64,000 nucleotides of DNA from Bacteroides pyogenes (lineage in GTDB: Bacteria > Bacteroidota > Bacteroidia > Bacteroidales > Bacteroidaceae). The DNA lies in contig NZ_JACIDI010000002.1 in NCBI RefSeq assembly GCF_014196225.1, forward strand, positions 186,001 to 250,000, given 5' to 3'. This document shows positions 1-62,004 of this stretch, piece by piece (positions within the stretch are counted from its first letter, which is position 1; the number at the start of each line of letters is the position of its first letter). The position numbers were made by a program, and so were the translations under genes. Under the pieces are notes generated by a model. The model was not told where the DNA came from, ran no database searches, and saw nothing but the letters and a program-made list of their open reading frames with translations.

Positions 1-490
1 CGGGTTTCTGCATCGGTAGAAAGAAGCCGGGAAATAGGTGAGAATGAATAACCCTCTCTCTTACTCCGAATCATACCACCGGTAGAAAGAAACGAAGAAA
101 TAGGTGAGAATGAAAAAACTTCCCCTTATTCCGAATCATACCACCGGTACAAAGAAACCGGAAAACGGATGAGAATGAATAGCCCTGCTCCTTATTACGA
201 ATCATACCATCGGTAGAAAGAAACCGGAGAAATAGGTGAGAATGAAAAAACCGACTCCTTATTCCAAATCACAGCATCGGTAGAGAGAAACCGAGGAATA
301 GGTTAGAATCAAAAAACTCCACCTTATTCCAAATCATAGCACCGATAGAAAGAAACCGAAAAGTAGGTGAGAATGAAAAATCCTACTCCTTACTCCGAAT
401 CATACCACCGATAGAAAGAAGTCCGGGAAGCAGAAGAAAACAGGCATGCTACTCCTTTTTCGAGTCGATACACCGATAAAAAGAAGACGG
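1..490. repeat. 66-bp imperfect tandem array upstream of the porin gene
   Basis: Eight units begin at 11, 77, 142, 208, 275, 340, 406 and 471 (spacing 65-67). Each opens with CAYCGRTAGAAAGAAACCG, followed by an AGGTGAGAATGAAAAA block and a CTTATTCCRAATCATA block. The array starts at or before the window edge and fades into the 5' region of the porin gene. The units are diverged and not a multiple of a shorter exact repeat, although the GAAAGAAAC and GAATGAAAAAAC blocks inside a unit sit about 22 bp apart. The 560 bases before the porin start hold nothing else I recognise. Confidence 0.9.
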
Positions 491-543
491 GAAGCAAGGG
501 GAAGATTCATAACCAAACCCATTGCCGCAATCGTTATTTTATG

Positions 544-551
544 TACTTTTG
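544..551 (+). promoter_or_regulatory. Possible -7 element (TACTTTTG) of the porin gene
   Basis: The octamer fits the Bacteroides TAnnTTTG consensus. It lies only 8 bases before the ATG at 560, so a transcript from it would be almost leaderless for that start. It would give a normal leader for an alternative start near 638, which is preceded by AGGAG at 623-627. Confidence 0.4.
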
Positions 552-559
552 CGGGCATT

Positions 560-1879
560 ATGAAGAAAATGATGTTGACACTTGCGGCAGTTTTATTCAC
601 TGAAGCAGGAGATAACCACATAAGGAGCATAAGAAGTTTGTTGACACTTGCGGCAGTTTTATTCGTTGCAGCAGGAAGTCTGGCGCAAAAGAAGGACTTC
701 AGCTACAAGTTTTACGGTCAGGTGCGCACAGACCTTTACTACAACAGCCGCGCAAATCAAGAGACGGTAGACGGATTGTTCTACATGTATCCGAAAGACA
801 AGAACCCCGACCCGGCAGGAAAGGACCTGAACGCCACACCCAACAGCAACTTTTACACACTATACTCACGGCTCGGAGTGAACATCACAGGACCGGAGCT
901 GGGCAATGCCACCACTTCCGCCAAGGTGGAGGCCGACTTCCGAGGCACGGGAAGCAGCTTCTCGGTGGTTCGTCTTCGCCACGCTTATTTCCGGATGGAC
1001 TGGGGAAAAAGCTCCTTATTGGCGGGACAAACGTGGCATCCGCTGTTCGGCGATGTGTCTCCGCAGATACTGAATCTTTCGGTAGGAGCGCCTTTCCAAC
1101 CCTTCAGCCGAGCTCCGCAACTGCGATACCGATATACGGGAAATCACATCCGGCTGACCGGATCTGCCGTATGGCAGTCGCAATACCTTTCGCAGGGGAT
1201 TGATGAAAACAACCCGATGAAAAGCAAAAAGAGCCAGGAATATATAAAGAAGAGCATGGTTCCGGAGCTTTTTGCGGGAATAGATTATCATTCGAAACAT
1301 TTTCTGGCGGGACTCGGCGTAGAGTTTCTCTCAATGAAACCGCGTACACAAGCCACAGGAGCCGACGGGAAAACCTACCGGGTGAGCGAGCGAATCAACA
1401 GTCTGTCTTATGAGGCACACGCCAAATATACCGCGAACGACTGGTTCATCGCCGCGAAAAGCGTATTGGGGTCGAACCTTACACAGACCTCCGGACTGGG
1501 CGGTTTCGGTGTCCGTTCGGTCGATTCAGCAACCGGAGCGCAAAAGTACACCCCGATACGTTTCTCAAGTTCGTGGCTGAACCTTGTATACGGCAAAAGG
1601 TGGAAACCGGGAATATTCGCGGGGTATGCCAGGAATCTCGGCACGCGCGAAGCGCTGCAAGAAGGCACTCCGCTGTACGGAACGGGCACGGATCTGAAAG
1701 ATCTTGCTTCACTCGGCACGGAGCTTACCTATAATACGCCCCATTGGAAGTTCGGCGTGGAATACCTGTACAGCATTGCAAACTACGGGAAAGACATCGA
1801 CCGGAAAGACGGGAAGATGCTCGATACGCATCCGGTGAAAAACCATCGCTTCGTGGCGGCAGCCATGTTCATGTTCTGA
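560..1879 (+). CDS. Porin-like outer-membrane beta-barrel protein
   Basis: The protein has 439 residues from the ATG at 560. A signal peptide is followed by KDFSYKFYGQVRTDLYYNSR and then alternating amphipathic strands to a C-terminal phenylalanine (AAAMFMF), as in outer-membrane barrels. It resembles the DcaP/porin-like proteins common in Bacteroides; no substrate can be read from it. The reading frame stays open upstream to 446, but those codons fall in the repeat array. The N-terminus is odd: the block LLTLAAVLF occurs twice, 22 residues apart, from a 24-base perfect DNA repeat at 575-598 and 641-664. Only the second copy leads into a normal cleavage site (AAGSLAQ), so a non-ATG start near 638 behind AGGAG (623-627) is a real alternative. 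It converges on the lyase gene. Confidence 0.75.
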   Translation: MKKMMLTLAAVLFTEAGDNHIRSIRSLLTLAAVLFVAAGSLAQKKDFSYKFYGQVRTDLYYNSRANQETVDGLFYMYPKDKNPDPAGKDLNATPNSNFYTLYSRLGVNITGPELGNATTSAKVEADFRGTGSSFSVVRLRHAYFRMDWGKSSLLAGQTWHPLFGDVSPQILNLSVGAPFQPFSRAPQLRYRYTGNHIRLTGSAVWQSQYLSQGIDENNPMKSKKSQEYIKKSMVPELFAGIDYHSKHFLAGLGVEFLSMKPRTQATGADGKTYRVSERINSLSYEAHAKYTANDWFIAAKSVLGSNLTQTSGLGGFGVRSVDSATGAQKYTPIRFSSSWLNLVYGKRWKPGIFAGYARNLGTREALQEGTPLYGTGTDLKDLASLGTELTYNTPHWKFGVEYLYSIANYGKDIDRKDGKMLDTHPVKNHRFVAAAMFMF

Positions 1880-1902
1880 TAGAAAAGCATACGCAACGGA
1901 AC

Positions 1903-2065
1903 TTAGCCGTATTCCTTCCAAACCGTTGTGTGGAATACCATCGCGCTGAGCCTGCTTCAGTTACGGCTTAGCCGCTTTCCTTCCAAACCGTTGTGTGGAA
2001 TACCGTCGCGCTGAGCCTGCTTCAATTACGGCTTAGCCGCTTTCCTTCCAAGCCGTTGCCGTTAG
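1903..2065. repeat. 65-bp tandem repeat, about 2.5 copies
   Basis: Units begin at 1903, 1968 and 2033, each with TTAGCCG. The first two full units differ at only about four of 65 positions; the third breaks off after about 30 bases. Degenerate CCTTCC-AAACCG blocks continue to about 2200. This fills most of the gap between the convergent porin and lyase genes; I see no clear terminator there. Confidence 0.9.
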
Positions 2066-2246
2066 TTGCAGAATCAGGCATTGCGCCTTCATATCCACAA
2101 GAGCTTATCTCTTTTCTTCCCGAACCGTTAGTTTAAGAGCGGCAGTATGCCCCATATCCAATAAGGCTTGTACCGCATTCTTTCCCAAACCGTTTAAAAG
2201 CCGCCCTCTCCTTAATAAAGGCACGGCACAAGCCTTGCTCCGCCCC

Positions 2247-5200
2247 TTATTTCGTGAGCCTGACTTCGAAGCTGCGACCTTCCCGGCAAAGGAAGCGAAG
2301 TTGCGTCTGCCGTTTATCGGCGGAAACAATCCGGCAATACGGAGTCTCTTCCACTTTCCAGCGCCCTCTCAGTGTAACGGTCACCGCAATCTCCCCGCTT
2401 TCATTATTGATCCACGGACGCGAGTAGATACTGCGTTCGATACGCTTTCCGTCGGCATCGAATGCTTCGTCGCTCGCTCCGCGATAGAGCGCAAGGTCGG
2501 GCTGAGCCACCGTCAGCAGCCACTGCTTCGCCGATTCTTGGCGGGTCATCACCAAGCAGGATGTATCCGCACGTTGAAGCAACGCACCGGGCAAATCCGC
2601 CTGAGGAGTGTCGAACAAGACGTACGAAGTGACCCGATCGCCGCCAAACTGCACGATATGCGCCCCGCGATCCTTACGCAACACCTTATAAGGTATACGC
2701 TTCAGCAAAGCAGACATCCTTTGCGCATCCGCCTGAGGGAATACGGCATATTCGTATCCCGCAGCCTTCGGCGCTTTCCCATGATCGATGACCAGCGACA
2801 CCCAGTCGCCTTTCGTCTCCGCGCCCGTATTCTGCATACGCGACAGTTGCGGGAAGTTTTTCTCGAAACGGGCAGCTACGGGCACATAGTATCCCGTCCC
2901 CAAATGGTCGGTCCACAGTTTCCGGTTTCCCGCAGGAGCATCTTTCCAGAACTCCCGTCCCTGCTTGTCGGTCACAGCCAGTTGGAATACGGTAGTCTCC
3001 GTAGGATACTCCGCATTCGCGTTTTCGATGTCCGACCCGAGACAGACAATCATTCCGTCGAGGAAATGGAACGATTTGCGCGCGCGGTGCGTACCGTTGT
3101 ATTTATCATGCTCGTGCAGTATCATACCGAAGTTTCCATCGGCTCCCTGCTGCGAAAGCCCGCCCGCAAACGCCTCATCCGAATAGAGCATCTCCTCGAT
3201 GCCCGAGTATCTGTCTACGTTCAGCACGTTTGCTTTCAGCAGTTCCCAAGGCAGATGAATGGAGGTTGTGCCCGGTATCCGGTTCCAGTCAAAGCCGGGT
3301 TGCACCCAGCCGCTCGTTGCGGGAGTCACTGTCTGTCCTGGCGCAGCCGTCAGAACCTGAAGGCTCCCGTGTGCCAGATAACGTCCGTAGAGGTTGGCTC
3401 CCAAGTAGTGCTCCGCCGCCCAGAGGTAGCGGGAATGCCCGCGAATCACAGCAGCCCAGTTGCTCCGCCGCTGCACCGACACGCAGCCGTAGCCGAGCGC
3501 AAGATTTCCCTGAGGGTCATTCTCCGCGCGGAATCCTTGAGCCGTGAGCCGCCGGGCTATCTCCCTTTCGCGGACATCGGATACTTTGGGCATGTATTCG
3601 GGTTCCTGTCCTGCCGCAGGGGCATCGGCAACCAGGCGAAGATAAGCCGAAGCCATCTCTCCGTCGACGGCTGACTTTCCGTCGGGAGTGCCTGCCATCG
3701 CCATCATGGCATAATGCATGGGAACGAGTTTGCCCTTTCCGTCGGGATGACGCCCCGACATAGAGAGCGGAAAGTGAAGTGTATTGCAATAAAAACGCAT
3801 CGCGGACAAGACGTTCTTGACCGTGCGGTGCGCCAGTTCGGAAACGGCAAACCCGGTTCCGTGAAGCAGATAAATCATATTCGTAGCCCCGTCTAGCCCG
3901 CCTACGGCATAAGCCGGGTAATGGTTGCGGTGATGGAAAGCCGCTCCGTCGGTCTTGAACGAACCTGCCAAACCCGTAGCCGGACGGCAACCGTAGTCTA
4001 TCCACCGCGAGAACGACCGCAGATATTGCAGCTTCTCCGGCGTGTCTTCCATCATCAGGATGCTGGCAATGCGCCCGGTGGTCTGCGTGTTGAACGAGTC
4101 CATATCGATTCCGTTACGTTCGGGTTTGGGATAGACTTCATTGGTGATGGCATACCACCGAAGCGTACGTTCGGCTTCGTGCAGCTTGCCCGCTTGTCGC
4201 AGCACGTCTTTCATCAGGAAGTAAGCCGGATAAAGCCCGCGCACGCTGTAGCCGTAGTGATGGATGTTTCCCCAGCAACTGCCGTATGCCACTCCCTGAT
4301 CGGTGATGTGATCGTACATGGCGAGAAACTTGCTCTTCATCTCTTCCCTCACCTCCGGATTCCCGCCGCTGTTGTTGTAAGCCACAGCAATACGCTTCAT
4401 CAGGTCGAAGTAAGCACGCATCTCCACCCCTTTTTTGGTCAGCATATCTTTGTCCCAACCCGGTATCAGCCGTTCGTAGGCTTCCGAAGCTCGCACCATG
4501 AAGATGGGCATGCCGCTCACCATGCCGTTGCGATAGGTAATGCCGTAAGCATCGTAACGCTTGCGGATGGCGGCTACCTCTTTCGGGGTGACGGCGGAGG
4601 GCGTATAAATCATGTCGCGGAAGCGCGCTTCAAGCAGTTGCATCTCCTCTTTCTCGCGATTGGTGACAGGCGTCAGCCCGATGTCGGGCTTCAGCAACGA
4701 ATGCTTGTAAACCACCAGCCAGTGGTTCGTTGTTCCCGCATTGACGAAAGGAACCTGCAAGTCGGCGGTTTGCTGGCGGGCATCCACCTTCGTGGCCGTA
4801 ATGAGATGATCGATGAACAGCTCTCCTTTCACAGCCGGAGCAACGATGCGAAGACGGTTCATCCCCTCTTCGGGCACGCCCTCCATGTCGCGCTCGTAGC
4901 ATACCCAAGCGGCACGCCAACCTTTGAAATTGATGCCGAAAGGAAAGGAAGCGCACACACGCCCGTCTTTCAGAAACTCGAAGCGCACGGTGGCATCCTT
5001 CGGCTGTTCGTTGTATATCCACACGATGAAAGCGGAAAGATAGAGGTCTTTCCCCGTAGGGTCTTTCTTCTCGAACTTCAGATCTTTCTCCAACTCAAGC
5101 ACTCCGCCCGGCTCGAAGCTCCACGCGAGCGACTGCCTGCCGTCTTTATAATGCGCCTGCGAAAGCGACAACCGGGAACCGGCAGCCGTAAAACAGGAAG

Positions 5201-5327
5201 GAACCGAAGAGTCTTCGAAAGAGAACATCCGTTCATGAGTGACCAATTGCGCGCCGGCAAATGCCGGGCAGAGAAAGAGGCACAGAGCGAGCGCGCCGCG
5301 CCGGAAAAGAGAGACTTGTTTCATCAT
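2247..5327 (-). CDS. Family 8 polysaccharide lyase, chondroitin sulfate ABC lyase type
   Basis: A secreted or periplasmic enzyme of about 1026 residues that should cleave chondroitin-type glycosaminoglycans by beta-elimination. The start is one of two adjacent ATGs (5327 or 5324), which give a signal peptide ending AFAGA; the open frame to 5450 lacks signal character. An N-terminal sandwich domain (about residues 25-190) precedes an alpha-toroid with [16 protein letters not shown] and [18 protein letters not shown], where the His and Tyr match the catalytic pair of Proteus ABC lyase. Next come [10 protein letters not shown] (Arg) and [13 protein letters not shown], then C-terminal beta domains. 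The length fits ABC lyases (about 1000) rather than AC lyases (about 700). No SusCD pair or sulfatase is adjacent, so the gene stands alone. Specificity is inferred from the family. Confidence 0.88.
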
Positions 5328-5355
5328 GGAATATCCGTTTTTTATTTCGTACCTA

Positions 5356-5363
5356 CAAAGATA
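5356..5363 (-). promoter_or_regulatory. -7 element TATCTTTG of the lyase gene
   Basis: CAAAGATA on the plus strand is TATCTTTG on the minus strand, about 30 bases upstream of the lyase start. It overlaps the end of the inverted repeat at 5361-5390. Confidence 0.65.
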
Positions 5364-5390
5364 CCCCTCTTCCTTGCGGAGAAGGGGTAT
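5361..5390. promoter_or_regulatory. Inverted repeat overlapping the lyase promoter
   Basis: Arms ATACCCCTCTTCC (5361-5373) and GGAGAAGGGGTAT (5378-5390) pair at 11 of 13 positions around a 4-base loop. The repeat covers the -7 element and the DNA just upstream of it, so an operator is more likely than an RNA hairpin. No regulator gene is adjacent. Confidence 0.5.
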
Positions 5391-5534
5391 AAATTGTACA
5401 GAAAACCGTCTCTTATGGTTCAGAGCGGCAGACACTCCGGTTATTTCCACTGCAAAATCACGGCTATCTCCTCATGCCGTACGGAAGCCGGCGCCCTGAA
5501 TGCTTCGGTTCGAAAGCTTTGCCGGCGCTTTGTT

Positions 5535-5622
5535 AAAAGGCGAATCACTGTTTCGAAAGGAACGAATTATTTTCTACCAAAATGCAAATCGTTGTTTATC
5601 AAAAGGCAAATCACTGTTAGCG
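5535..5622. repeat. 22-bp tandem array, four units, in the 5.3-5.9 kb gap
   Basis: Units begin at 5535, 5557, 5579 and 5601, exactly 22 bp apart. The first and last (AAAAGGCGAATCACTGTT and AAAAGGCAAATCACTGTT) are nearly identical and 66 bp apart; the two between are diverged. The rest of the gap to 5905 is AG-rich and holds no recognisable gene or hairpin. Confidence 0.75.
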
Positions 5623-6508: not shown

Positions 6509-6700
6509 ATCAGAAGTTGGATATACCGATAGAAGAAACCGTTTTTTTATTTTGCAGAAAGGGAAAAGGAAGGGGCAAAGGCAGCGAACAGAATCCGCCC
6601 ACGCCACAGGAACGAAGGTCGGAAGCTGCCCGGCGGAAAGGATAAGGAGCTAAACCGGAGTTCTGCGGGATGCCGGATGCGGAATGGATTCCGGCATAAA

Positions 6701-6942
6701 CAGAGGCTCTGTCCGGCGGAAACAGAGGCTCTGCCAGAAACAAACGGAGCCTCTGTTCGATGCAAACAGAGACTCTGCTCCAAACAAATGCCAAACCCAT
6801 CTGGCAAAGCCACCAAACCAGCTACGAACTGACAGAAGCTCTGCTCCGAACAAATGCCAAATCCATCGGAAGCGAACAGAAAAACTGCATGATAAAAACA
6901 GGGCCTCAGGATGATGTAAACAAAGGCTCTGCTCCTCTTGAG
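6701..6942. repeat. 22-bp phased tandem array, eleven units
   Basis: Units begin at 6701, 6723, 6745, 6767, 6789, 6811, 6833, 6855, 6877, 6899 and 6921, with no phase slip. Many contain the dyad CAGAG-N-CTCTG; others carry a TGCCAAAYCCATC type. Two neighbouring blocks of three units repeat as a 66-bp block: the 35 bases from 6767 and from 6833 agree at 31. The array fills the gap between two minus-strand genes. There are no unique spacers, so it is not CRISPR. Confidence 0.93.
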
Positions 6943-12629: not shown

Positions 12630-12635
12630 AACACA

Positions 12636-12811
12636 GCGGGCAGATATGTTCGGCACGGTGGGTATATATGGTCATCACGGTGAGTATATATAGTCAGCTA
12701 TGGTGAGTATATATGGCCAGCATGGTGGATATATATGGCCAGCATGGTAGGCATATATACCCACCGCAGTGCACATATATAATTTATAGGGCAGGCATAT
12801 ATACCTGTAAC
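12636..12811. repeat. 22-bp array, TATATATGG family (locus 1)
   Basis: Units begin at 12657, 12679, 12702, 12724, 12746, 12768 and 12790 (22-23 bp). Most contain GGTGAGTATATATGGYCA or a decayed form. A weaker unit (about 12636) lies 7 bp after the wbqC stop. The same unit family is found at about 33300-33490 and 54460-54640, in the same orientation. The array separates wbqC from the convergent PUL 1. Confidence 0.9.
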
Positions 12812-23281: not shown

Positions 23282-23371
23282 TTCGTCTGCCGTTCGCGTT
23301 CTATTCGTCTTTCGGTTGTGTTTTATTCGTCTCTCATTCGGCAGACGAATAAAACACAACCGAAAGACGAA
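23282..23371. repeat. 29-bp perfect inverted repeat with 22-bp internal phase, upstream of susC
   Basis: Arms 23304-23332 and 23343-23371 are perfectly complementary over 29 bp around a 10-base loop. TTCGTCT recurs at 23282, 23304 and 23326 (22 bp apart) and AGACGAA at 23343 and 23365 (also 22). An 11-base segment 23282-23292 can pair with 23339-23349 instead, which would exclude the long stem. It lies about 290 bp upstream of the susC start and 230 bp downstream of the regulator stop. The rest of the gap (22994-23604) is AT-rich, with one further stem-loop at 23532-23557. Confidence 0.9.
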
Positions 23372-28005: not shown

Positions 28006-28916
28006 TAGGAATCGGAGAAACTATTCTCGATATCGTCTTTCGGGGAGGGCAGCCTTCGGTAGCCGTTCCCGGCGGATCGGTGTTCAACGGCATCGTGTCT
28101 CTAGGACGAATGGGAGTGAATGTCAATTTCATCAGCGAGACGGGAAACGACCGCGTAGGAAACACTATTCTGCAATTCATGCGCGAGAATCATGTGCCTA
28201 CCGAACACGTAAACGTGTTCCCCGACGGGAAATCGCCCGTATCGCTTGCTTTTCTCAACGAGCAAAACGATGCGGAATATATATTCTACAAGGATTATCC
28301 CAAACAGCGTCTGGATGTGATTTATCCTGTCTTACAGGAAGACGACATCGTGATGGTAGGCTCATACTATGCTCTCAATCCTGTTCTCCGCGACAAGATA
28401 CTGGAACTACTCGATCAGGCGCGCGAGAAGAAAGCTATCATTTATTACGATCCGAATTTCCGGTCTTCGCATAAAGACGAGGCTATGAAGCTGGCGCCCA
28501 CCATTATCGAAAACCTTGAATACGCCGATATCGTACGCGGTTCGGCGGAAGACTTCTTCTACATGTACGGCATGCGCGATGCAGACCGGATATACAAAGA
28601 CAAAATCAAGTTTTATTGCCCCCGGTTCATCTGCACCGCAGGCAGCGACAGCATATCACTCCGCAGCAATACCGTGAGCAAAGAGTATCCGGTAAAACCG
28701 TTGGAAGCCGTCAGCACCATCGGAGCAGGCGATAATTTCAATGCGGGACTGATATACGGACTGCTGAAATATGATGTCCGATACCGCGATCTGGATAATC
28801 TGAGTGAAGCGATCTGGGACAAAGTGATTCAGTGCGCGAAAGATTTTGCCGCCGAAGTTTGTCGCAGTTACTACAATTCGGTGTCCTTGGATTTTGCCCG
28901 CAGCTACTCCGGATGA
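27993..28916 (+). CDS. PfkB family carbohydrate kinase
   Basis: 307 residues from the ATG at 27993, inside the end of the isomerase gene. It has the ribokinase fold: GIGETILDIVF, PGGSVFNGIVSLGRMGV (first PfkB signature region), ADIVRGSAEDF, and STIGAGDNFNAGLIYGLL with the anion hole and catalytic Asp of GAGD. It phosphorylates a sugar; fructose or a related ketose is plausible but not shown. Translational coupling with the isomerase suggests one pathway. Confidence 0.92.
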   Translation: MRKVVGIGETILDIVFRGGQPSVAVPGGSVFNGIVSLGRMGVNVNFISETGNDRVGNTILQFMRENHVPTEHVNVFPDGKSPVSLAFLNEQNDAEYIFYKDYPKQRLDVIYPVLQEDDIVMVGSYYALNPVLRDKILELLDQAREKKAIIYYDPNFRSSHKDEAMKLAPTIIENLEYADIVRGSAEDFFYMYGMRDADRIYKDKIKFYCPRFICTAGSDSISLRSNTVSKEYPVKPLEAVSTIGAGDNFNAGLIYGLLKYDVRYRDLDNLSEAIWDKVIQCAKDFAAEVCRSYYNSVSLDFARSYSG

Positions 28917-33296: not shown

Positions 33297-33494
33297 TGCC
33301 GCTGAAGTGCCTATATACAGGGCACTGCAATATACATATATGGCTACCGCGGTGTACATATATGGCTACCGTGGTGTGCATATATGGCTACCGCGGTGAG
33401 TATATATGGCTACCACGGTGAGTATATATGGCTACCGCGGTGAGTATATATGATTATTGCGGCAGGTATATATCGCAGTCCCGACGGGCATGCA
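33297..33494. repeat. 22-bp array, TATATATGG family (locus 2)
   Basis: Units align at 33297, 33319, 33341, 33363, 33385, 33407, 33429, 33451 and 33473, exactly 22 bp apart. The middle five carry TATATGGCTACCGCGGTG with few changes; the edges decay. It separates the convergent glsA and PUL 2 regulator genes. The remaining bases to 33616 show no gene. Confidence 0.93.
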
Positions 33495-41888: not shown

Positions 41889-42095
41889 AAGAATCATCTT
41901 TCAGGATTGAAACAGAATCATACTTCGAGTTCGAAATTGTTATTTTCATCTTGCATCTTTTTAGAGGCGCAAGAATTGAAACAGAATCATACTTCGAGTT
42001 AGAAGCAGAATCATACTTCGGGTTAGAACCTGCTGTTGTTGCTTTAAATGTCACTGCTTCGGTATGTTGAAACAGAATCATACTTCGGGATTGAA
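41889..42095. repeat. 24-bp repeats in doublets, between PUL 2 susD and GH144
   Basis: GAATCAT marks units at 41891, 41915, 41984, 42008 and 42075. Pairs 24 bp apart are themselves 67-69 bp apart. The consensus core is GAAACAGAATCATACTTCG. From 41689 to 41888 I see nothing. Confidence 0.85.
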
Positions 42096-42157
42096 ACAAA
42101 TACTTTCTTTCTCTGCCCGGGAGCATCATCCATAAATCGATATCTGGCGATGGATTG

Positions 42158-42400
42158 GTAACGGGCAGTGTGATGATACCGTCATCGGCAAGGCGATGAT
42201 ATCGTCATCGGGAAGGCGATGATACCGTCATCGGCAGAGCGATCATACCGTCATCGGCAGAGCGATCATACCGTCATCGGCAAGGCGATGATATCGTCAT
42301 CGGCAGAGCGATGATTACGTCATCGGTCAGGCGATCATACTGTCATCGGCAGAGCGATCATACCGTCATCGGCAGAGCGATCATACCGTCATCGGGAAAT
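42158..42400. repeat. 23-bp array with exact phase, ten or eleven units
   Basis: GTCATCGG recurs at 42181, 42204, 42227, 42250, 42273, 42296, 42319, 42342, 42365 and 42388, always 23 bp apart. Units alternate between CGATGAT and CGATCAT types. Adjacent units place CGATGA and TCATCG face to face as dyads (CGATGATATCGTCATCG). No spacer of independent sequence is present. It ends about 165 bp before GH144. Confidence 0.95.
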
Positions 42401-44115: not shown

Positions 44116-44159
44116 CGGATATAACATAAAAGAATAACGGATATTAAAAGCACAATGGC

Positions 44160-44325
44160 ATGAAACTGAATATGATAATACGAAAAGACCGGCAACGTGC
44201 AACAAACAATACAAGCATTTTCTCCGGCATGAAACCCAATATGATAATAATACGAAAAGTGGGAGGAATCATCGGAGGAATCGTCGCCGCCAAAGGTAGG
44301 AAACCTAATATGATCATACGAAAAG
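44160..44325. repeat. 69-bp triplication of the GH3 start region
   Basis: A block that reads ATGAAACCCAATATGATAAT in its clearest copy begins at 44160, 44229 and 44298. Each ends in ATACGAAAAG. All three are in frame with the GH3 gene, giving K(L/P)NMIIRK three times. The last copy lost its first ATG (AGG) but keeps the inner ATG at 44310. Confidence 0.88.
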
Positions 44326-46595
44326 GGCTGCTCACAGCCTTGCTTGCAGTCTCTGTCACGACGATACAGGCTGCACGGCAAAATGATGATGACCGCATGA
44401 ACAGGTTCGTCGACAGCCTGATGAAGAGAATGACGCTACAGGAAAAGATCGGGCAACTCAACCTGCCCGTATCGGGCGATATTGTTACGGGAGAAGCAAG
44501 AAGCAGCGACATCGCCGGAAAAATAAGGAAAGGAGAAGTAGGAGGGCTCTTCAATGTGAAGGGAGTGGAGAAGATACGCGAGCTGCAAGGAATTGCCGTC
44601 GGGCAAAGCCGCCTGAAGATACCTCTGCTCTTCGGCATGGACGTCATTCACGGCTACGAAACGGTCTTCCCCATCCCCTTGGCTCTATCATGCAGTTGGA
44701 ACATGGATGCTGTCAGGGCGTCGGCACGTATCGCCGCAATGGAAGCAACCGCGAATGGCATTTGCTGGACATTCAGCCCGATGGTCGACATCTGCCGCGA
44801 TCCTCGTTGGGGGCGCATGGCCGAAGGAGTGGGTGAAGATCCGTACCTTGGCTCCGCTATCGCCGAAGCGATGGTACAGGGTTATCAGGGGAGCGATCTC
44901 AAAGCGGCGAACACTCTCATGGCTTGTGTCAAGCACTTTGCCCTCTACGGAGCTTCCGAAGCCGGACGTGACTACAATACGGTGGATATGAGCCGGGTGA
45001 GTATGTTCAACTATTACTTCCCGCCTTACAAGGCGGCAGTAGATGCCGGTGCAGGCAGTGTGATGACCTCGTTCAACGTAGTCGACGGTATTCCCGCCAC
45101 GGGCAACAAATGGCTGATGACCGACGTTCTTCGCAATCGCTGGGGCTTCGACGGGTTCGTGGTGACCGACTACACCGCCATCTTCGAGATGATTGCTCAC
45201 GGCATGGGCGACTTGCAGCAAGCGTCGGCCCTCTCGCTCAATGCAGGAACGGACATGGACATGGTCTCCGACGGATTCTCGGGCACGCTGGAGAAGTCGC
45301 TCAGGGAAAGGAAAGTAACGATGGAAGCCATCGACAAGGCTTGCCGGAGGATTCTGAAAGCCAAATACAAGTTAGGGCTGTTCGACGACCCTTACAGATA
45401 CTGCGACCCGGAACGCATCGCGAAAGAAGTGTTCACCGCAGAAAACCGTGAGGTGGCACGCAAAGTGGCGACCCAGACTTTCGTCCTGCTGAAGAACGAA
45501 GGCGGACTGTTGCCTCTGCCACGCAAAGGGAAAATCGCACTTATAGGACCTCTCGTGCATACAAGGGAGAACATGCCCGGCACATGGAGCGTGGCCGCTT
45601 CGTTCCAGAAATACAACTCTCTCTATGAAAGCATGAAAGAGGCGGTGGCAGGCAAAGCCGAGCTCTATTATGCGAAAGGCTGCAACCTGATGTACGATGC
45701 ACGGCGGGAAGCAGATGCCACGATGTTCGGGCGGGAGATGCGCGATCCGCGAACCGATAAAGAAATGCTTGACGAAGCGTTGGAGGCAGCCCGTAAATCG
45801 GACATTATCATAGCCGCCGTAGGCGAGTCGTCGGAGATGAGCGGCGAATCGAGCTCTCGCACCAACCTTGAAATGCCCGATGCCCAGCGCGATCTTCTCA
45901 CAGAGTTGAAGAAGACCGGCAAGCCGGTCATCCTGCTCCACTTCTCGGGACGCAGCACGGTGATGACGTGGGAGCAGGAGAACTTCCCCGCCATACTGAA
46001 CGTATGGTTCGGCGGCAGCGAAGCAGCCGACGCCATCTGTGACGTCATATTCGGCAAGGTATCACCGAGCGGAAAGCTGACGACGACATTCCCGAAACAC
46101 GTAGGGCAAATCCCTCTCTACTACAATCACCTGAACACGGGACGTCCGCTTCCCGAAGGAGAATGGTTTACCAAGTTCCGCAGCAACTACCTCGACATCG
46201 ACAACGAGCCTTTGTATCCGTTCGGTTACGGGCTGTCATACACCACCTTCCGCTACAACGGCCTTCACCTGAGCAGCGATTCGATGAGCACCACAGGCAG
46301 CATCAAGGCTTCGGTTACCGTCACCAATACGGGAGACTTCGACGCGGACGAAGTAGTACAACTGTACATCCGCGATTTGGCAGGCAGCATATCCCGCCCG
46401 GTGAAAGAGCTGAAAGGCTTCGAACGCATCAGCCTGAAGAAGGGAGAAAGCCGCACCGTCTCTTTCGACATTACGGCAGACAAGCTGAAATTCTACAACA
46501 GCGAACTGCAATGGGTATGCGAACCGGGCGAGTTCGAAATAATGATAGGCGGAGACAGTCGTAATGTACAGACGGCGAAAATGCGTCTGCAATGA
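44310..46595 (+). CDS. GH3 beta-glucosidase, PUL 2
   Basis: 761 residues from the ATG at 44310, which gives a clean signal peptide (MIIRKGLLTALLAVSV, TTIQA). In-frame ATGs at 44160, 44172 and 44229 lie in duplicated copies of the start region and would add about 50 residues of repeat before the signal, so the start is uncertain. The GH3 barrel shows CWTFSPMVDICRDPRWGR, KHFALYGASEAGRDYN and nucleophile Asp in GFVVTDYTA; the second domain has AVGESSEMSGESSSR, and a fibronectin-III-like C-terminus follows. Probably splits sophorose-type disaccharides made by GH144; by memory a characterised B. thetaiotaomicron GH3 (BT_3567) does this. Last gene of PUL 2. Confidence 0.9.
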   Translation: MIIRKGLLTALLAVSVTTIQAARQNDDDRMNRFVDSLMKRMTLQEKIGQLNLPVSGDIVTGEARSSDIAGKIRKGEVGGLFNVKGVEKIRELQGIAVGQSRLKIPLLFGMDVIHGYETVFPIPLALSCSWNMDAVRASARIAAMEATANGICWTFSPMVDICRDPRWGRMAEGVGEDPYLGSAIAEAMVQGYQGSDLKAANTLMACVKHFALYGASEAGRDYNTVDMSRVSMFNYYFPPYKAAVDAGAGSVMTSFNVVDGIPATGNKWLMTDVLRNRWGFDGFVVTDYTAIFEMIAHGMGDLQQASALSLNAGTDMDMVSDGFSGTLEKSLRERKVTMEAIDKACRRILKAKYKLGLFDDPYRYCDPERIAKEVFTAENREVARKVATQTFVLLKNEGGLLPLPRKGKIALIGPLVHTRENMPGTWSVAASFQKYNSLYESMKEAVAGKAELYYAKGCNLMYDARREADATMFGREMRDPRTDKEMLDEALEAARKSDIIIAAVGESSEMSGESSSRTNLEMPDAQRDLLTELKKTGKPVILLHFSGRSTVMTWEQENFPAILNVWFGGSEAADAICDVIFGKVSPSGKLTTTFPKHVGQIPLYYNHLNTGRPLPEGEWFTKFRSNYLDIDNEPLYPFGYGLSYTTFRYNGLHLSSDSMSTTGSIKASVTVTNTGDFDADEVVQLYIRDLAGSISRPVKELKGFERISLKKGESRTVSFDITADKLKFYNSELQWVCEPGEFEIMIGGDSRNVQTAKMRLQ

Positions 46596-53248: not shown

Positions 53249-54277
53249 TCAATCGGCAAAAAGCGTTTGCTGACTGCTGTACAGGCTGCGCCCCAAATGT
53301 TTATAAGCAAGTTCCGTCACCTCCCTGCCGCGCGGTGTACGCTTCATAAAACCCTCTTTGATGAGGAAAGGCTCATAGACCTCCTCGATGGTTCCGGCGT
53401 CTTCGCCCAGCGCGGTAGCGATGGTAGTCAGTCCCACAGGACCTCCTTTAAACTTGTCGATAATGGTGCACAGAATCTTGTTGTCTATCTCGTCGAGCCC
53501 GTAGCGGTCAATGTTCAGCGCTTCGAGCGAGAACCGGGCAATGTCCGTATCGATGGAGCCTGTCCCTTTCACTTGCGCAAAGTCCCGCACACGGCGAAGC
53601 AGGGCATTGGCTATACGCGGAGTGCCGCGGCTGCGCGACGCTATTTCCGACGCTGCAGGAATGGAGCAAGGCACATCGAGGATGGAAGCGGAACGGCGGA
53701 TGATCGTACTCAGCACATCGTCGTCGTAATACTCCAAGTGCAGATTGATGCCGAAACGCGCGCGAAGCGGAGCCGTAAGCAGCCCGCTGCGTGTGGTTGC
53801 ACCCACAAGCGTGAAAGGACTCAGGTCGATCTGGATGCTGCGCGCCGAAGGACCTTTGTCTATCATGATGTCGATGCGGTAATCTTCCATGGCGGAATAC
53901 AGATACTCCTCCACCACGGGCGACAGCCGGTGAATCTCGTCGATGAAGAGCACATCGTTCGGTTCGAGACTGGTGAGCACTCCTGCCAAATCGCCCGGTT
54001 TGTCGAGCACAGGCCCCGAAGTGATTTTAAAACCCACACCCAGTTCGTTGGCAATGATGTTCGAAAGCGTCGTTTTACCCAATCCGGGAGGTCCGTGAAG
54101 CAGCACGTGGTCGAGCGCTTCTCCGCGCAAACGGGCCGCCTTCACAAAGATGCGAAGGTTGTCCACCACCTTGTCCTGTCCGCTGAAGTCTTCAAAACTC
54201 AACGGGCGAAGAGCGTTCTCAAAGTCGCGTTCTTTCGGACTGAGCTGATGGTTGCGTATATCGAAATCTTCTTCCAT
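53249..54277 (-). CDS. ruvB: Holliday junction branch-migration ATPase RuvB
   Basis: 342 residues from the ATG at 54277, the usual length. The frame stays open a further 82 codons into the upstream 22-bp arrays, but that is repeat DNA upstream of the promoter. Motifs: [11 protein letters not shown], Walker A GPPGLGKT, Walker B DEIH, sensor GATTRSGLL, arginine finger region RGTPRIAN and a winged-helix C-terminus. It drives branch migration with RuvA. Neither ruvA nor ruvC is adjacent. Confidence 0.97.
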
Positions 54278-54352: not shown

Positions 54353-54462
54353 ATTGCAGAAGGCGGGGCGGAACATCGCAAAAGATGGGGCGGAAAATTG
54401 CAAAAGATGGGAGAGAGTATTGCAGAAGGCGGGAGCGAGCATTGCAGAAGCAGTCATCGTAC
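54353..54462. repeat. 22-bp array upstream of ruvB, five units
   Basis: ATYGCARAAGRYGGG units begin at 54353, 54375, 54397, 54419 and 54441, exactly 22 bp apart. It runs directly into the TATATATGG array that follows. Confidence 0.92.
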
Positions 54463-54642
54463 AGGGTATATACCCCCCTCGTGGTGAACATATATATCCA
54501 CCGTGGTGAGTATATATACTCATCCCCCATGACTATATATGGCTACCACGCTGAGTATATATGGCTACCACCCATGACTATATATGCTCACCACCCATGA
54601 CCATATATGTATCCGACACACGCCCATATATACGTGCCTCGA
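54463..54642. repeat. 22/23-bp array, TATATATGG family (locus 3)
   Basis: Units marked by (G/C/A)TGA-TATATA begin at 54484, 54506, 54529, 54551, 54574, 54597 and 54620, with one weaker unit before. Two contain TATATATGGCTACCAC as at locus 2. It lies in the divergent gap between ruvB and the SpmA/SpmB-like gene; this is the only family shared between loci. Confidence 0.9.
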
Positions 54643-54717: not shown

Positions 54718-54745
54718 TCGCAGTATATTTATCGACACACCGCTT

Positions 54746-56517: not shown

Positions 56518-56550
56518 ACGAAAAAGAGGGGCTGTCGAAACGAACGTAAG

Positions 56551-56790
56551 ACAAGCCCCTGCTATTATAAAGCGAAACAGTGAAAACGACATAAAAGAGT
56601 GCCAGAATCTTTATCGACAAACCTTTACTATTATAAAACGGAACTACATATATGTCGCGCCCATCCTGCACATCAGAATAGCCAAACCCTTACTTTTTAT
56701 AAAGTGGAATCGCTGCAATGAAGCCCCCGTTTTAGCTCCACGTGTCAAACAAACCCTTACTTTTATAAAGCGGAATCGCTGCCCACCGCC
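56551..56790. repeat. 66-bp tandem array, four units
   Basis: ACAAGCCCCTGCTATTATAA-type blocks begin at 56551, 56617, 56682 and 56749 (66, 65 and 67 bp). Each carries AAACCCTTACTTTTATAAA and GCGGAATCGCTGC or decayed forms. It fills the gap between ybeY and the convergent DUF4374 gene. Confidence 0.9.
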
Positions 56791-56796
56791 TTCCCG

Positions 56797-58038: not shown

Positions 58039-58176
58039 TGCTTTAAGTTTTAATGATGGTTTAATTTATAATTGAATTCTTCAACTATGTGCTTTCGGTC
58101 AGGCGTGTATTACACTCGGCACAATAAAGCATACAGTTGCTTTTTGCTGTGAAAGCATCGCCTTTCGAGGAAAACC

Positions 58177-58351
58177 ATACGGCTTTTCGGAGAAAGCCCT
58201 TGAGCATTCCTGTAAAAACCCACGAGCGTTCTTGTGAAAACCCACGAGCGCTCTTGTGAGAACCACGAGCGTTCCTGTGGAAACCCACGAGCGCTCTTGT
58301 GAAAACCCACGAGCGTTCCTGTGAAAACCCACGAGCTTTTATTTGAAAACA
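58177..58351. repeat. 22-bp array seeded at the 3' end of the TonB receptor gene
   Basis: CACGAG marks units at 58221, 58243, 58264, 58286, 58308 and 58330 (22, 21, 22, 22 and 22 bp), with decayed units at 58199 and 58177. The unit at 58330 overlaps the stop and last codons of the receptor gene (stop at 58339-58341). Units contain CACGAGCGYTCYTGTGAAAA. Confidence 0.93.
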
Positions 58352-60678
58352 TAGCGTAACCTGATGTTAAAGTTTCGGCCGGGCAACGGACGGTTGAACT
58401 CGCTTATCATCCGCCGGTCGGTCAGATTATTGATTCGTCCCATTACGAAATAGCGTCCGTCTGCGAAGCTCTGTTCAAAGCCTATGTTGAATGCAAGCGT
58501 GCGCGGAATACGCCGCTGCTGATATTGGCTTTGCTCGAAGTCATACAAGTATTCCTCCACAAGGCTTCCATCGGCAAACAGCCTTGTATTCATACCTTTT
58601 CCTCCCAGCAGGTTTTCTTTGTGAAACTCAAGACCGGCATTCGCCATCAGATAGGGTATGTTGGGCATCCTGCTTCCTTTGGTCGGATTGGGCACTTGGG
58701 TATTCTGTTCATACTTGCGGGTGTCTCGCATATCCTGATAGGTAGCGTTGGCAAATCCGTAGAGCCAACGTGTGATATCGGCTTTCACCTCCGCCTCTAC
58801 GCCAAACGTACGCATCTCGCCGAAGTTTTGATATTGCGACTGCAAGAACCCTCCGGTAAAACGAATCATATCCTTCAGATACATATAATATCCGTTTAGT
58901 TCGATCTGCAGATTGCTGGGCGATTTCCCCGTTTTATCGAACAATATGCCCAGATTGATACTCGTATTGCGTTCGGGATTGAGGTTGCCGGCAGGAGCAA
59001 CGACATATCCGTCGCCCAAAAGCTCGTTTTCGGCAGGCAGCCTCACATCATACCCCACCGAAGCCTTTGCCATCAGGCTGGGAGTGAATCGATAGCGAAG
59101 CGCATTGCTGATCCCGACATTGCTTTTTCGGGTATCAATGTCTTCTGCATGATTCGTCAGTACGCTGGCCATTCGCGTCTTCATCGAATAATAATAGAAC
59201 TTGATGTTGACGGAGTTAAGAAACTTGTCGTTCGATGTACGGAAATCATAGTTCAACCCGGCAACCCAACTCAGCATATCGCTTTTAAAGTTAGTACGGT
59301 AGCCTATTACCTTATCTTTCAGCTCATCCTTCGGATCGGCATGCGCGTAGTTTAACAACGAGTTGAAGTTGATGCTATGCCGCTCATCGATGAGGTAGCT
59401 CAGATTGATTTTATTAGCCAATGTTTGTTTAGGGCTCTTTGACCTGGAAGCCCACTTCCCTATCTCACCTCCATACTGCGATACCGCCGGATAGGTGGTT
59501 CCGTCCCAATGCGTGCGATAGGATGCAGTATCGACAAACTGATAATCCGTATAAATATATGCCAGCTGCCAGTCCAAATCCAGTCCTTCGGAAAGGAAGT
59601 TTTCTTTCTCTATTTTATTGGCGAAGACAAATGCGTTGGAATGGCTATGTGCATGCCGAATGTTGTACTCGATACCTTGTATCTGCTTGTAGGTGTGCAA
59701 GAACATGGGCTCGAACTCAACAAGGTCGAACCACCATTTGCGCGCTTTAAAGCTGCCGCCGATTACGAGTTTCTGAAACTCGTCATGGTCGCGCTTTATC
59801 GTCAGCCCATCCTGAAAAGGCGAACGCATCGTATAACTGTTGTCCGAATAATCGTAGAATCCCCCTGCTCCGAACTCATATCCTTTCGATGCAATGTTCC
59901 GTTTGCTCACAACCGAAACCTTGTGCGTATTGAAACTCCCGAATGAATAATTGACATCCAAATATTTAGGCGGATACTCGCGAATGACGATATTGACCGC
60001 TCCACCTACTGCGGAGCCTCCGAACTTGGCAGGAACAACACCCTTATAGATTTCGATGCGATCTATCATCTCCACCGGGATGTCGTTGATATCTATAAAG
60101 TCCGAGTTGTCATTCATCGGATTCCCGTCAATAAAGAGCCCGATACGCTTCCCTTCGAGCCCTCTCACCGAGATGCGGGAAGCGCTTCCCACACCTCCTG
60201 AGGAACGCACGGTCACGCCCACCGTCTTTGCCAGCACATCCTGCACGTTGTTCACTGTTCCTTGCAGTTGCTTCATGCTGATGACCGATACGGGCATTGC
60301 CAACTCGCGTATCTGCCGGGCTTCACTCTTGGCGGTGATTACAACCTCTTCGAGCGACTGGGCTTCGGGTTTGAGGCGAATGACTTGCTTTTTCGCATTC
60401 TCTTTGGTAACCTTTATTTTTTCCTTCTGTGTGTGATAACCCATAAACGACACGGTAGCGGTATAAGTACCGTAGGGAATATCGGCAAACGAAAACTCGC
60501 CATACCTATCCGTTACACCCCCTCTTTTCAGTTCTTCTATAAAAACCGTTGCTCCGGATAGCGGCGATTCATCGGAGGAGTCTATCACTACCCCTGAGAA
60601 TCTGCTTCCATTCGTTTGAGCCGGTGCACTGAAGCAGACCACCACCGCAAACAAAGAAAAAAGTATTTTCTGTTTCAT
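58339..60678 (-). CDS. TonB-dependent receptor, XusA-like
   Basis: 779 residues. A signal peptide (CFSAPAQ) precedes a carboxypeptidase-regulatory-like domain (about 28-105), the TonB box region SLEEVVITAKSE, a plug (RISVRGLEGKRIGLFIDGNPM, VVPAKFGGSAVGGAVNI) and a barrel ending in RYVFK. Its size and plug are of the siderophore/heme type rather than SusC. With the DUF4374 lipoprotein it probably imports a metal chelate. The last codons are inside the first unit of the 22-bp array. Confidence 0.93.
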   Translation of the reverse strand: MKQKILFSLFAVVVCFSAPAQTNGSRFSGVVIDSSDESPLSGATVFIEELKRGGVTDRYGEFSFADIPYGTYTATVSFMGYHTQKEKIKVTKENAKKQVIRLKPEAQSLEEVVITAKSEARQIRELAMPVSVISMKQLQGTVNNVQDVLAKTVGVTVRSSGGVGSASRISVRGLEGKRIGLFIDGNPMNDNSDFIDINDIPVEMIDRIEIYKGVVPAKFGGSAVGGAVNIVIREYPPKYLDVNYSFGSFNTHKVSVVSKRNIASKGYEFGAGGFYDYSDNSYTMRSPFQDGLTIKRDHDEFQKLVIGGSFKARKWWFDLVEFEPMFLHTYKQIQGIEYNIRHAHSHSNAFVFANKIEKENFLSEGLDLDWQLAYIYTDYQFVDTASYRTHWDGTTYPAVSQYGGEIGKWASRSKSPKQTLANKINLSYLIDERHSINFNSLLNYAHADPKDELKDKVIGYRTNFKSDMLSWVAGLNYDFRTSNDKFLNSVNIKFYYYSMKTRMASVLTNHAEDIDTRKSNVGISNALRYRFTPSLMAKASVGYDVRLPAENELLGDGYVVAPAGNLNPERNTSINLGILFDKTGKSPSNLQIELNGYYMYLKDMIRFTGGFLQSQYQNFGEMRTFGVEAEVKADITRWLYGFANATYQDMRDTRKYEQNTQVPNPTKGSRMPNIPYLMANAGLEFHKENLLGGKGMNTRLFADGSLVEEYLYDFEQSQYQQRRIPRTLAFNIGFEQSFADGRYFVMGRINNLTDRRMISEFNRPLPGRNFNIRLRYVFK

Positions 60679-60833
60679 CGTACTTTTGATTTATGCCCTT
60701 ATGGGCGTTTGAATTAATTATTTAGCTTAATTTTCTTTCTTTTTATTCTTGCTACAACAATGGAAGCAGACAGAATGCCACTACTGCAATATAAAGAACT
60801 CTCAAAAAAGAACAATTCCCTGTTTTGTTCCAT

Positions 60834-60866
60834 AAAAAAACGAGCTGCACTTTTCAGGCAGCCCGC
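60834..60866 (-). terminator. Intrinsic terminator behind the orphan small gene
   Basis: Arms GCTGC (60844-60848) and GCAGC (60858-60862) form a short stem extended by neighbouring G-C pairs. On the minus strand it is followed by seven T residues (complement of the A run 60834-60840). It lies about 40 bp after the stop of the 96-residue gene and upstream of the receptor gene. Confidence 0.6.
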
Positions 60867-60904
60867 TTGATGGAATAAATGTATAACGTTCTGAATAGCG
60901 TATA

Positions 60905-61195
60905 TCATATCGGATGAGGAAGATTCAATAAGTTGTTCACACCCGGATGCTCGATGTCCGTATCCTCATAATGACTCGAAGAAAAGCTGCCCGTTTCTTC
61001 CTTTTCCTCCGGAATATCCGTACTGCGAGCGCTACCGGAAAGGTTACGGCTTTCAGACAAAGAAATTCTCCGCGCCGAAATCCATGATTCTTCACAGAGG
61101 CAGATACCGTTTACGCCTTGAACAAGCGTTACGGTTTCATCGCTGATGATATTAGTGATACTCATATTTATGTATATATTATCTACTTCTTTCAT
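60905..61195 (-). CDS. Small protein of unknown function
   Basis: 96 residues, or 86 from a second ATG at 61165. No membrane segment and no recognised domain. It contains VTLVQGVNGICLCEESW with two cysteines, a serine-rich stretch (RRISLSESRNLSGSARS) and an acidic tail (DIPEEKEETGS, HYEDTDIEHPGV). A terminator-like hairpin follows the stop, which supports a real transcript. No promoter match was found. Codon-position bias is not strong enough to be sure it is translated. Confidence 0.5.
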   Translation of the reverse strand: MKEVDNIYINMSITNIISDETVTLVQGVNGICLCEESWISARRISLSESRNLSGSARSTDIPEEKEETGSFSSSHYEDTDIEHPGVNNLLNLPHPI

Positions 61196-62004
61196 TTAAG
61201 TTCAACCGGGCATGGATATTGTTCGAAACAGCATCTTTTCGGGAGGCTCAAGCATGAAGCCACCTTTGGATATGTTCTTGAGAAAGCCTTTTCCATGCTT
61301 GGATACCCCCTTGCCGGCATTCTCTTTCTTTCATTGCATAGACGAGATACTCCTCTGCGTTCTCTGTACAAAAATACGCGTTTATTTTTATATGAACAAT
61401 CCCTATTTATTGTGATTTTACACGCAGAAAGAAACGAAAACAGAAGGTATTTGAGGATGTGCATTCCATACATCTTCTCAGGTTTACCAATTGTGATAAT
61501 AACCGAAATATGAAGAATTTCAATTATCTAATCTAAAATCAGAAACAGTTGCTTTGCTATTTGCGTGAAGACATAGAGGGCACACCCCCTTGTAACATAA
61601 TTGAATAATTGAATACCACGAATAAAAGCACCGATAACCTTTGATGATTTTCCTTGTAGCATAATTGAATAATTGAATACCTGCTTGTTACCGTCAATGA
61701 ATTGTTTCACCTCCGGCTTACGGTAGAGGGCGGAATATAAAAAGGAGAGACTATGGGATAGCTTGCCCATATGCTATAAGTAAGGCTGCCTCATTCTCTT
61801 TTCGATTCTGAGACAGCCTTTTCCCTTATAAAACAAAACTATAAATATCAGGCATTATATCGAATAAGATGTCGGGATACTGCAAACGGACAACCCTGTT
61901 TCTTATTACTGTTTACTGCATAAACTATTTGAAAGTCTGGATAGACAGAAACTCAATCCACGAGAGCGTAGCCTTGTTTCTTATTCCGTATAAAGCTCCA
62001 TTGA
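61196..62004. repeat. 809-bp gap with a 64-bp direct repeat
   Basis: The 29-30 bases from CCTTGTAACATAATTGAATA (61588) recur with one change at 61652 as CCTTGTAGCATAATTGAATA; the spacing is 64 bp. The shared block itself contains AATTGAATA twice. A hairpin lies at 61782-61820. The rest (61196-61580 and 61830-62004) shows no convincing gene. Confidence 0.7.
61782..61820. terminator. Stem-loop, possible terminator
   Basis: AAGGCTGCCTCA (61782-61793) and TGAGACAGCCTT (61809-61820) pair with one mismatch, followed by TTCCC on the plus strand. Placed about 185 bp past the rubrerythrin stop; the minus strand has no clear T run. Confidence 0.4.

Follow-up and report, generated by a model that had tools for sequence, protein, structure and literature searches.

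The window analysed here is a 64,000-nucleotide stretch of Bacteroides pyogenes DNA (G000:C2:186001-250000; the assembly, G000, has 3.39 Mb in 43 contigs). It carries many short repeats. An earlier note on this DNA listed 18 coordinates with periods of 20-24 or 64-69 bp and proposed that unrelated sequences share one length quantum of 22 bp, with 66 as three times 22. We propose that the loci with a spacing near 66 bp are scars of CRISPR (clustered regularly interspaced short palindromic repeats) adaptation, in which short DNA fragments were integrated as spacers at off-target sites, and we take the 22-bp arrays for a separate class.

To find repeats, we used ungapped self-matches at each lag (the lag scan), with Tandem Repeats Finder (TRF) as a second method. 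Our genome sample was the window plus 60 stretches of 20 kb each, or 1.264 Mb of 3.394 Mb (37%). The comparison set was 80 named Bacteroidales loci (1.515 Mb) and 979,534 further bases from genomes of the same genus or the same family (2.495 Mb in all). (Labels beginning with G, C, or L are our handles for genomes, contigs, and loci.)

The features of the window that bear on the 66-bp spacing are listed below. An event is a site duplicated around an insert; the duplication is shorter in class A and longer in class B. A strand is given for the gene only.

446-1879, + strand: porin-like outer-membrane gene carrying the event at 573-676 (translation by inspection and homologues; no NCBIfam match).
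573-676: class B event; a 28-bp insert (611-638) lies between two copies of a duplicated 38-bp stretch, at lag 66, and the event lengthens the porin-like signal peptide by 22 codons (split-pair scan and homologue alignment). No source of the insert was found in its own genome.
6766-6867: class B event; a 30-bp insert (6802-6831) lies between the two copies (89% alike) of a 36-bp duplication, and 29 bases of the insert match G000:C7:103676-103704 (L128:3704-3676) at 97% (split-pair scan).
61588-61681: class A event; a 30-bp duplication (29/30 identical) with a 34-bp insert, lag 64 (split-pair scan). No source of the insert was found in its own genome.
56562-56778: degenerate mini-array; four ~19-bp core copies spaced 66, 66, and 66, with differing intervening sequence (lag scan).
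44157-44325: degenerate mini-array; a ~31-bp repeat occurs three times at spacings of 69 and 69, the two ~38-bp spacers differ from each other, and the array overlaps the beginning of the BglX gene at 44160-46595 (lag scan).
41903-42098: four copies of a ~25-bp repeat spaced 69, 24, and 67 (lag scan).
11-500: plain tandem array; ~7 copies of a 65-67-bp unit, ~80% alike (TRF and lag scan), which we read as a site multiplied by slippage.
1902-2058: plain tandem 65-bp repeat; 2.4 copies, ~94% alike (TRF and lag scan).
28150-28184: donor of the insert in the class A event L212:3758 (G000:C2), with which it agrees at 35/35 bases (insert search).
53655-53688: donor of the insert in the class A event L225:5414 (G000:C12), matching it over 34 bp at 97% identity (insert search).

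Rfam gave no match in the window at the gathering score, and there is no tRNA in the window either. The LepB sequence puts this DNA within Bacteroides or beside it: among the 80 loci retained, the best matches are from Bacteroides, with identities of up to 80%.

The dominant lags in the window were 22-24, 43-46, and 64-69, along with their multiples, and TRF agreed. Three locally shuffled copies of the window gave 0 lag segments, so the arrays in the earlier note are real and far above chance, and the lag spectrum, which that note had expected to be flat if its claim were wrong, is not flat. At the thresholds used, 13 of the 18 coordinates show the claimed period: 6701, 12657, 23282 (by TRF only), 33297, 42158, 54353, 54463, and 58177 for 20-24 bp, and 11, 1903, 44160, 56551, and 61588 for 64-69 bp. 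Among the other five, 36801 has lags of 59 and 79-81; at 41889, lag 24 occurs along with 67-69; and 5535, 30153, and 43961 have no lag segment of the claimed period. It also holds up that unrelated sequences share a fixed length. What does not survive is the single quantum. Our genome sample contains 196 arrays, with a fundamental lag of 21-23 in 54 and of 63-68 in 80 loci (one of these 80 is a true type VI-B CRISPR array). The 80 named Bacteroidales loci contain 144 arrays, with 50 at 21-23, 52 at 7-8, and one at 63-68. The further relatives contain 52 arrays, with 19 at 21-23 and two at 63-68, namely one event in G182 (L154:18392) and one true CRISPR array in L163. Relatives overall thus have 69 of 196 arrays at 21-23, and only 2 non-CRISPR loci and one true array at 63-68. 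(We found no arrays in 50 kb of E. coli.) The 22-bp peak is found across the order Bacteroidales while the one at 66 bp is almost confined to this genome, so the two behave as separate phenomena. Furthermore, many of the 66-bp loci have a different anatomy, with a duplication and a foreign insert. The relation 66 = 3 x 22 looks like a coincidence.

Most of the split pairs at a lag near 66 depart from a plain tandem repeat: two nearly identical direct copies of ~30 or 36 bp surround an unrelated insert. At lags of 26 or more, the genome sample has 163 split pairs, of which 87 are at lags 63-67 (the true array at L008 is excluded from our pair counts, and the true array at L110 from these two). 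There are also 55 full tandem pairs, 31 of them at lags 63-68. Within a single event, the match at the lag extends over just 25-43 bp, and identity falls to the chance level (0.10-0.35; 40 pairs) beyond the sharp edges of the duplication, so each single event is a direct repeat flanking an unrelated insert. The two copies are 0.86-1.00 identical within the retained events. In relatives, 0 of 28 split pairs (1.515 Mb), 0 of 3 (240 kb), and none in another 380 kb are at lags 63-67, and a further 360 kb has one, aside from one true array. (An earlier count of 111 split pairs still includes the true array at L110.) The only split event in relatives with the same dimensions is L154:18392, with a lag of 65 and 30 bp, in G182, whose genome encodes a related Cas13b.

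In a single event, one insert lies between two repeats. The arrangement of a CRISPR array, in which at least three near-identical repeats alternate with spacers that differ, is found at few sites only: L014:1929-2096, with three 36-bp repeats and two different 30-bp spacers, and L217:5898 and L018:15629, which likewise have three repeats and two unlike spacers.

Many of the inserts are copies of DNA from elsewhere in the same genome. In a search of the 37% sample, 13 of 66 inserts had a non-local copy of at least 24 nt. In 12 of the 13, the copy spans most or all of the insert, with edges near the insert's edges; the other is partial (26 nt, L222). A whole-genome search gave remote donors within this same genome for at least 18 of 47 inserts (excluding the partial L222 donor), and this may be a floor, as 40 of the 85 candidates were scored in one search. 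(The other 19 of the 66 inserts lay outside the whole-genome search; most are in multi-copy arrays, but the single events L225:2330 and L225:6344 are among them.) As controls, the longest match among those listed for 66 shuffled inserts was 16 nt, and just 1 of 31 true CRISPR spacers had a match, which was 16 nt long. Several donors are exact: C1:229303-229331 for the insert in mutS2 (29/29 identical), L128:9147-9176 for the insert at L014:2031 (30/30), L003:6582-6616 for the insert at L129:17773 (35/35), and 28150-28184 in the window for the insert at L212:3791. Overall, inserts differ from their donors by 0-11%. The overlap (microhomology) at the junctions is small, 0-4 nt by eye. Of 16 donors examined, including the partial L222 donor, 14 lie inside open reading frames (ORFs) of at least 60 amino acids. 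Donor-verified inserts are 29, 30, 33, and then 34-38 nt long.

Three events lie in genes. The mutS2 gene in L119 (TIGR01069, E = 9e-255) encodes 22 extra residues that correspond to one duplication and one insert. All 11 relatives that we aligned, out of 41 genomes with a mutS2 match, lack these 22 residues and hold a single copy of the duplicated stretch. Similarly, the extra 22 amino acids in the signal peptide of the porin-like protein are absent from 11 of 11 aligned homologues, although the N-termini align weakly. In a GH20 gene, the third event falls immediately ahead of the first Pfam domain or at its beginning. All three insertions keep the reading frame. We did not retain other ORFs as genes: for the L018 ORF, the matching sequence in most rows of relatives has stops and it looks antisense, and the L225 and L111 ORFs matched no Pfam family. 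We also set aside frame conservation as proof that the events are real: 7 of 7 events in ORFs of at least 150 amino acids have a lag of 66, but a frameshift would end the ORF, so this is partly by construction.

Among 42 single events, the duplication is 26-33 bp in 31 (class A, with a mode of 30), 34-44 bp in 10 (class B), and 25 bp in one, which we placed in neither class; we set the cut at 33/34 bp ourselves. The commonest duplication lengths are 29-30 bp, followed by another group of 36-39 bp, with noisy edges and without a clean separation of the classes. After trimming and with the donor matches, we read class A as a duplication of about 29-30 bp with an insert of 34-38 bp, and class B as about 36-37 bp with 29-30 bp.

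These are the dimensions of CRISPR repeat and spacer units, at odds with the earlier note's statement that no described element fits. The class A size is that of type I-B arrays in sister species. In three genomes of the same genus (L103-L105), arrays beside a type I-B Cas1 (TIGR03641, above the cut-off) have 29-bp repeats at a spacing of 63-67, and PMC9367070 gives the B. fragilis I-B repeat as 29 nt. The class B size is that of this genome's own VI-B array, which adjoins Cas13b (NF038190, E = 6e-237) and has 36-bp repeats at a spacing of 65-66 (36 + 29/30). The dimensions of class B also occur in a type II array, since 36-bp repeats at a spacing of 65-67 are present at a type II locus of G029.

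The type II locus of this genome has Cas9, Cas1, and Cas2, and 47-bp repeats at a spacing of 76-77; from the repeat and the neighbours, we take it to be type II-C. Its Cas1 and Cas2 fit class B. (PMC9367070 offers a B. fragilis II-C repeat for comparison.) Near the II-C array, at a distance of ~2 kb, is a 65-bp tandem array of 6.1 copies that are 96% alike (L110:6497-6895, G000:C8). At L018:5764-5887 (G000:C7), outside the main array, there are by eye two diverged copies of the II-C repeat (89%) at lag 77, either a relic or a second II-C array; we considered this pair as a II-C-sized event and rejected it as a II-C repeat relic.

The duplicated sites also resemble CRISPR repeats, each class in its own way. 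We compared the duplications (n = 31 for class A and n = 10 for class B) with control windows 120-600 bp away. Class A duplications had a mean of 12.29 matches to I-B repeats versus 11.21 for controls (z = 3.66), and z was 0.79 against VI-B repeats. Conversely, class B duplications had 16.40 matches to VI-B repeats versus 14.34 for controls (z = 3.64), and z was 0.40 against I-B repeats. The five "VI-B" repeats in this comparison included a 36-bp one from a type II locus (L109). With repeats from beside Cas13b only, and with one related class B event dropped, z for class A was 4.36 against I-B (reached by 0 of 5,000 control samples) and 0.75 against VI-B, and z for class B was 2.68 against VI-B (35 of 5,000 control samples) and 0.33 against I-B. 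A motif search by expectation-maximization at the duplication edges gave a weak result, with 9 of 200 control sets reaching the score for class A and 3 of 200 for class B. The motif GYTG, with which the VI-B and II-C repeats here start, stands at one end in 6 of the 10 class B duplications (two of these six being related copies in L006) and in none of the 31 of class A, against 5.3% of random windows. Separately, T is scarce two bases outside the duplication in the single events sampled across the genome (a frequency of 0.07 in 84 ends; chi2 = 21.9; one of 32 positions tested), which is a possible target preference.

We propose that the 66-bp loci are scars of off-target spacer integration by Cas1-Cas2, in part of self DNA, with some sites then multiplied by slippage; we give this a probability of about two in three. 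The Cas1-Cas2 integrase would load a short DNA fragment, in many cases from the cell's own chromosome, and insert it at a chromosomal site that merely resembles a CRISPR repeat. Two staggered attacks followed by gap filling would duplicate the site and leave the order site, insert, site. The two geometries suggest two adaptation modules, with the dimensions of type I-B for class A and of type VI-B for class B, and class B would presumably have been written by the resident II-C Cas1-Cas2. Repeated integration at one site would yield mini-arrays in which three or four repeats are separated by spacers that differ, and slippage between direct repeats could multiply the 65-66-bp unit to form plain tandem arrays. 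Integration by Cas1-Cas2 would leave behind this combination: a duplication as long as a repeat, an insert as long as a spacer, captured self DNA, targets that look like repeats, and growth in steps with different spacers. Of the two explanations offered in the earlier note, the evidence for the 66-bp class points to a copying process that adds DNA in fixed steps.

Several observations weigh against our proposal. First, the assembly holds one Cas1 and one Cas2 (both type II), no Cas3 above the cut-off, and no I-B module, so class A, the larger class, needs a module that was lost or that exists elsewhere in the population. Second, relatives with I-B modules show no events in the stretches sampled (100 kb of G017, 40 kb of G026, and 20 kb of G035), and 100 kb of G182, which has a VI-B module, shows one. 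Because module-bearing relatives are almost free of events in these 20-100 kb, the modules alone would be insufficient. Third, we saw no event of II-C size (47 + 30) at an unrelated site. Fourth, the search left 29 of 47 inserts without a donor, with 40 of 85 candidates scored in one search. Fifth, protospacer-adjacent motifs (PAMs) are not evident: by eye, the published I-B PAM (GG at +2,+3) is beside 3 of 11 class A donors in either orientation, with ~1 expected, and the II-C PAM (C at +6) is beside 1 of 4 class B donors. Sixth, we chose the GYTG motif after looking. Finally, duplication lengths are measured with error, and the donor-verified insert lengths leave no clean gap between the classes. 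The lack of a clean gap made us slightly less confident and raised our estimate for the alternative that we turn to now.

This alternative, which we consider unlikely, is template switching during replication through a single-stranded loop of ~65 nt. A nascent 3' end, frayed over the length that becomes duplicated, would copy a remote template and then resume at the base of the loop, so that duplication and insert together have a set length but can share it in any proportion; without remote copying, plain 66-bp tandems would result. The loop could, for example, be the stretch wrapped by one tetramer of the single-stranded DNA-binding protein SSB (65 nt). Across the 42 single events, the sum is tighter than its parts (standard deviation of 1.1 versus 4.1 and 4.2; r = -0.96), with the lag preselected to be 63-68. 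For lags of 45-90 (29 pairs with identity of at least 0.95), the standard deviation of the sum is 4.5 versus 7.9 and 8.1 for the parts. Such tightness would also suit a fixed loop of ~65 nt. The loop would also unify the split and the plain 66-bp arrays, and it fits the small junction overlaps and the lack of a clean gap between the classes in donor-verified insert lengths. However, the lag is exact and the duplication length is not, so edge error alone can give r = -0.96, and we demoted the SSB loop for this reason. Furthermore, a loop does not predict that each class resembles a different type of CRISPR repeat, or that mini-arrays have different spacers, and SSB is universal, yet the events are missing from relatives.

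Target-site duplications with templated inserts could also come from the repair of double-strand breaks with filler DNA, or from a retroelement that copies by target priming. Either would account for the site-insert-site anatomy, the remote genomic donors, and the scarcity of microhomology. But these processes should give broad lengths, yet over half of the split pairs (87/163) fall at lags 63-67, and a preference for repeat-like targets is not expected. We consider this quite improbable.

The other explanation in the earlier note was a protein that reads spacing, by phased binding or bending; selection would then keep the units at 22 or 66 bp. Dyad symmetry is enriched in the 22-bp units, so a role in binding or as hairpins is possible for that class. 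For the 66-bp class, the inserts that have donors elsewhere, mostly within ORFs, speak against this, and the events inside mutS2 and the GH20 gene fit insertion better than selected binding sites; we give this explanation very little credence. Least credible of all is an artefact of assembly or chimeras tied to a k-mer length near 66: a misjoin could produce a sharp length and exact remote copies, but the copies have diverged from each other and the inserts from their donors, some sites carry seven diverged units, and the insertions in mutS2, the porin-like gene, and the GH20 gene are in frame.

The 22-bp arrays of the window are:

12632-12781: 22-bp array of a dispersed unit family, ATATATGGCTACCGYGGTGAGT (TRF and lag scan).
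33333-33476: 22-bp array of the same family, ATATATGGCTACCGYGGTGAGT (TRF and lag scan).
54490-54631: 22-23-bp array of the same family, ATATATGGCTACCGYGGTGAGT (TRF and lag scan).
6690-6788: 22-bp array of the AACAGAGSCTCTG family, overlapping the class B event at 6766 (TRF and lag scan).
42164-42395: 23-bp array, 10 copies (TRF and lag scan).
54353-54450: 22-bp array (TRF and lag scan).
58160-58350: 22-bp array (TRF and lag scan).
23282-23332: short 22-bp array (TRF).

We take these for minisatellites of a preferred period. The genome sample has 58 arrays with a period of 20-24, of which 22 share one dispersed unit family and 10 share another. The family ATATATGGCTACCGCGGTGA has 51 matches in this genome (with up to 2 mismatches) and 0 in 60 relatives. 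One repeat family cannot underlie all of the arrays, as ATATATGGCTACCGCGGTGA covers only 22 of these 58 and the listed 66-bp units differ in sequence. Among genomes of the order, the 22-bp units are mostly unrelated. A dyad score of at least 7 is found for 25 of 131 units (3 of 58 here and 22 of 73 in relatives) versus under 1% of shuffles. The arrays are in tandem (31), convergent (16), and divergent (9) gaps roughly as these gaps occur (237, 92, and 75). The 22-bp arrays and the multiplied 65-66-bp units both behave like ordinary bacterial minisatellites. Unlike ordinary minisatellites, the 22-bp arrays have one preferred period across the order, units that are mostly unrelated between genomes, and an enrichment for dyads. 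At L006:434-796, the spacing alternates 65, 44, 65, 44, 65, 44 (36 + 29, 36 + 8), and the 22-bp CAGAG-CTCTG family is interspersed with repeat units of 36 bp. The 52 of 144 arrays with a period of 7-8 in loci L022-L101 are hepta- or octanucleotide repeats, most of them, by eye, in Prevotella-like loci.

Among the papers listed in literature searches on off-target integration, templated insertions, and the tandem repeats of Bacteroides or Bacteroidetes, none describes these loci. If the proposed Cas1-Cas2 integration is correct, it would explain the striking length rule of these intergenic repeats without a new element. A genome with dozens of scars, many with a readable donor and target, would show natural off-target integration at scale, and one could then measure from sequence how targets are chosen, how self DNA is acquired, and how CRISPR arrays are born. 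More tentatively, and with somewhat more doubt than belief, we suggest that CRISPR adaptation has acted in this genome as a genome-wide insertion mutagen: two modules would have placed spacers, many of them self-derived, at ~200 unrelated chromosomal sites (extrapolating from the 80 loci in our 37% sample). Some genes would have been lengthened in frame, putative mini-CRISPR arrays would have formed de novo with guides that match genes of the cell itself, and 65-66-bp minisatellites would have been seeded. On this reading, new CRISPR arrays and new tandem repeats would have a natural route of origin. Also, a B. fragilis "orphan CRISPR" call with three repeats and two spacers is judged an artefact in PMC9367070; if our proposal is correct, small and non-uniform calls of this kind need not be false.

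How does this compare with known systems? Nivala, Shipman and Church (2018; cited in PMC11788318 and PMC11687729) reportedly described off-target ("non-canonical") spacer integration by Cas1-Cas2, and to our knowledge, off-target integration is known only from overexpressed enzymes. The class A events match the Bacteroides type I-B arrays (PMC9367070, and L103-L105 here), with their 29-bp repeat, 34-38-bp spacer, and spacing of 63-67; they differ from those arrays in having one or a few spacers per site and a repeat sequence that varies from site to site, in an assembly with no I-B genes. For class B, the closest parallel is the acquisition of VI-B spacers via the II-C Cas1-Cas2: as shown in Hoikkala 2021 (PMC8092290), the same pair of systems is in one genome, and the spacers are mostly 30 bp, with many of them self-derived. 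That account concerns true arrays, while the sites described here are scattered and only repeat-like. Off-target integration itself, as cited in PMC11788318, was seen upon overexpression of Cas1-Cas2. The likeness is that a short fragment is inserted at a chromosomal site that is not an array; the difference is that here there are ~80 natural loci in 37% of one genome, in two size classes and with self donors for at least 18 of 47 inserts.

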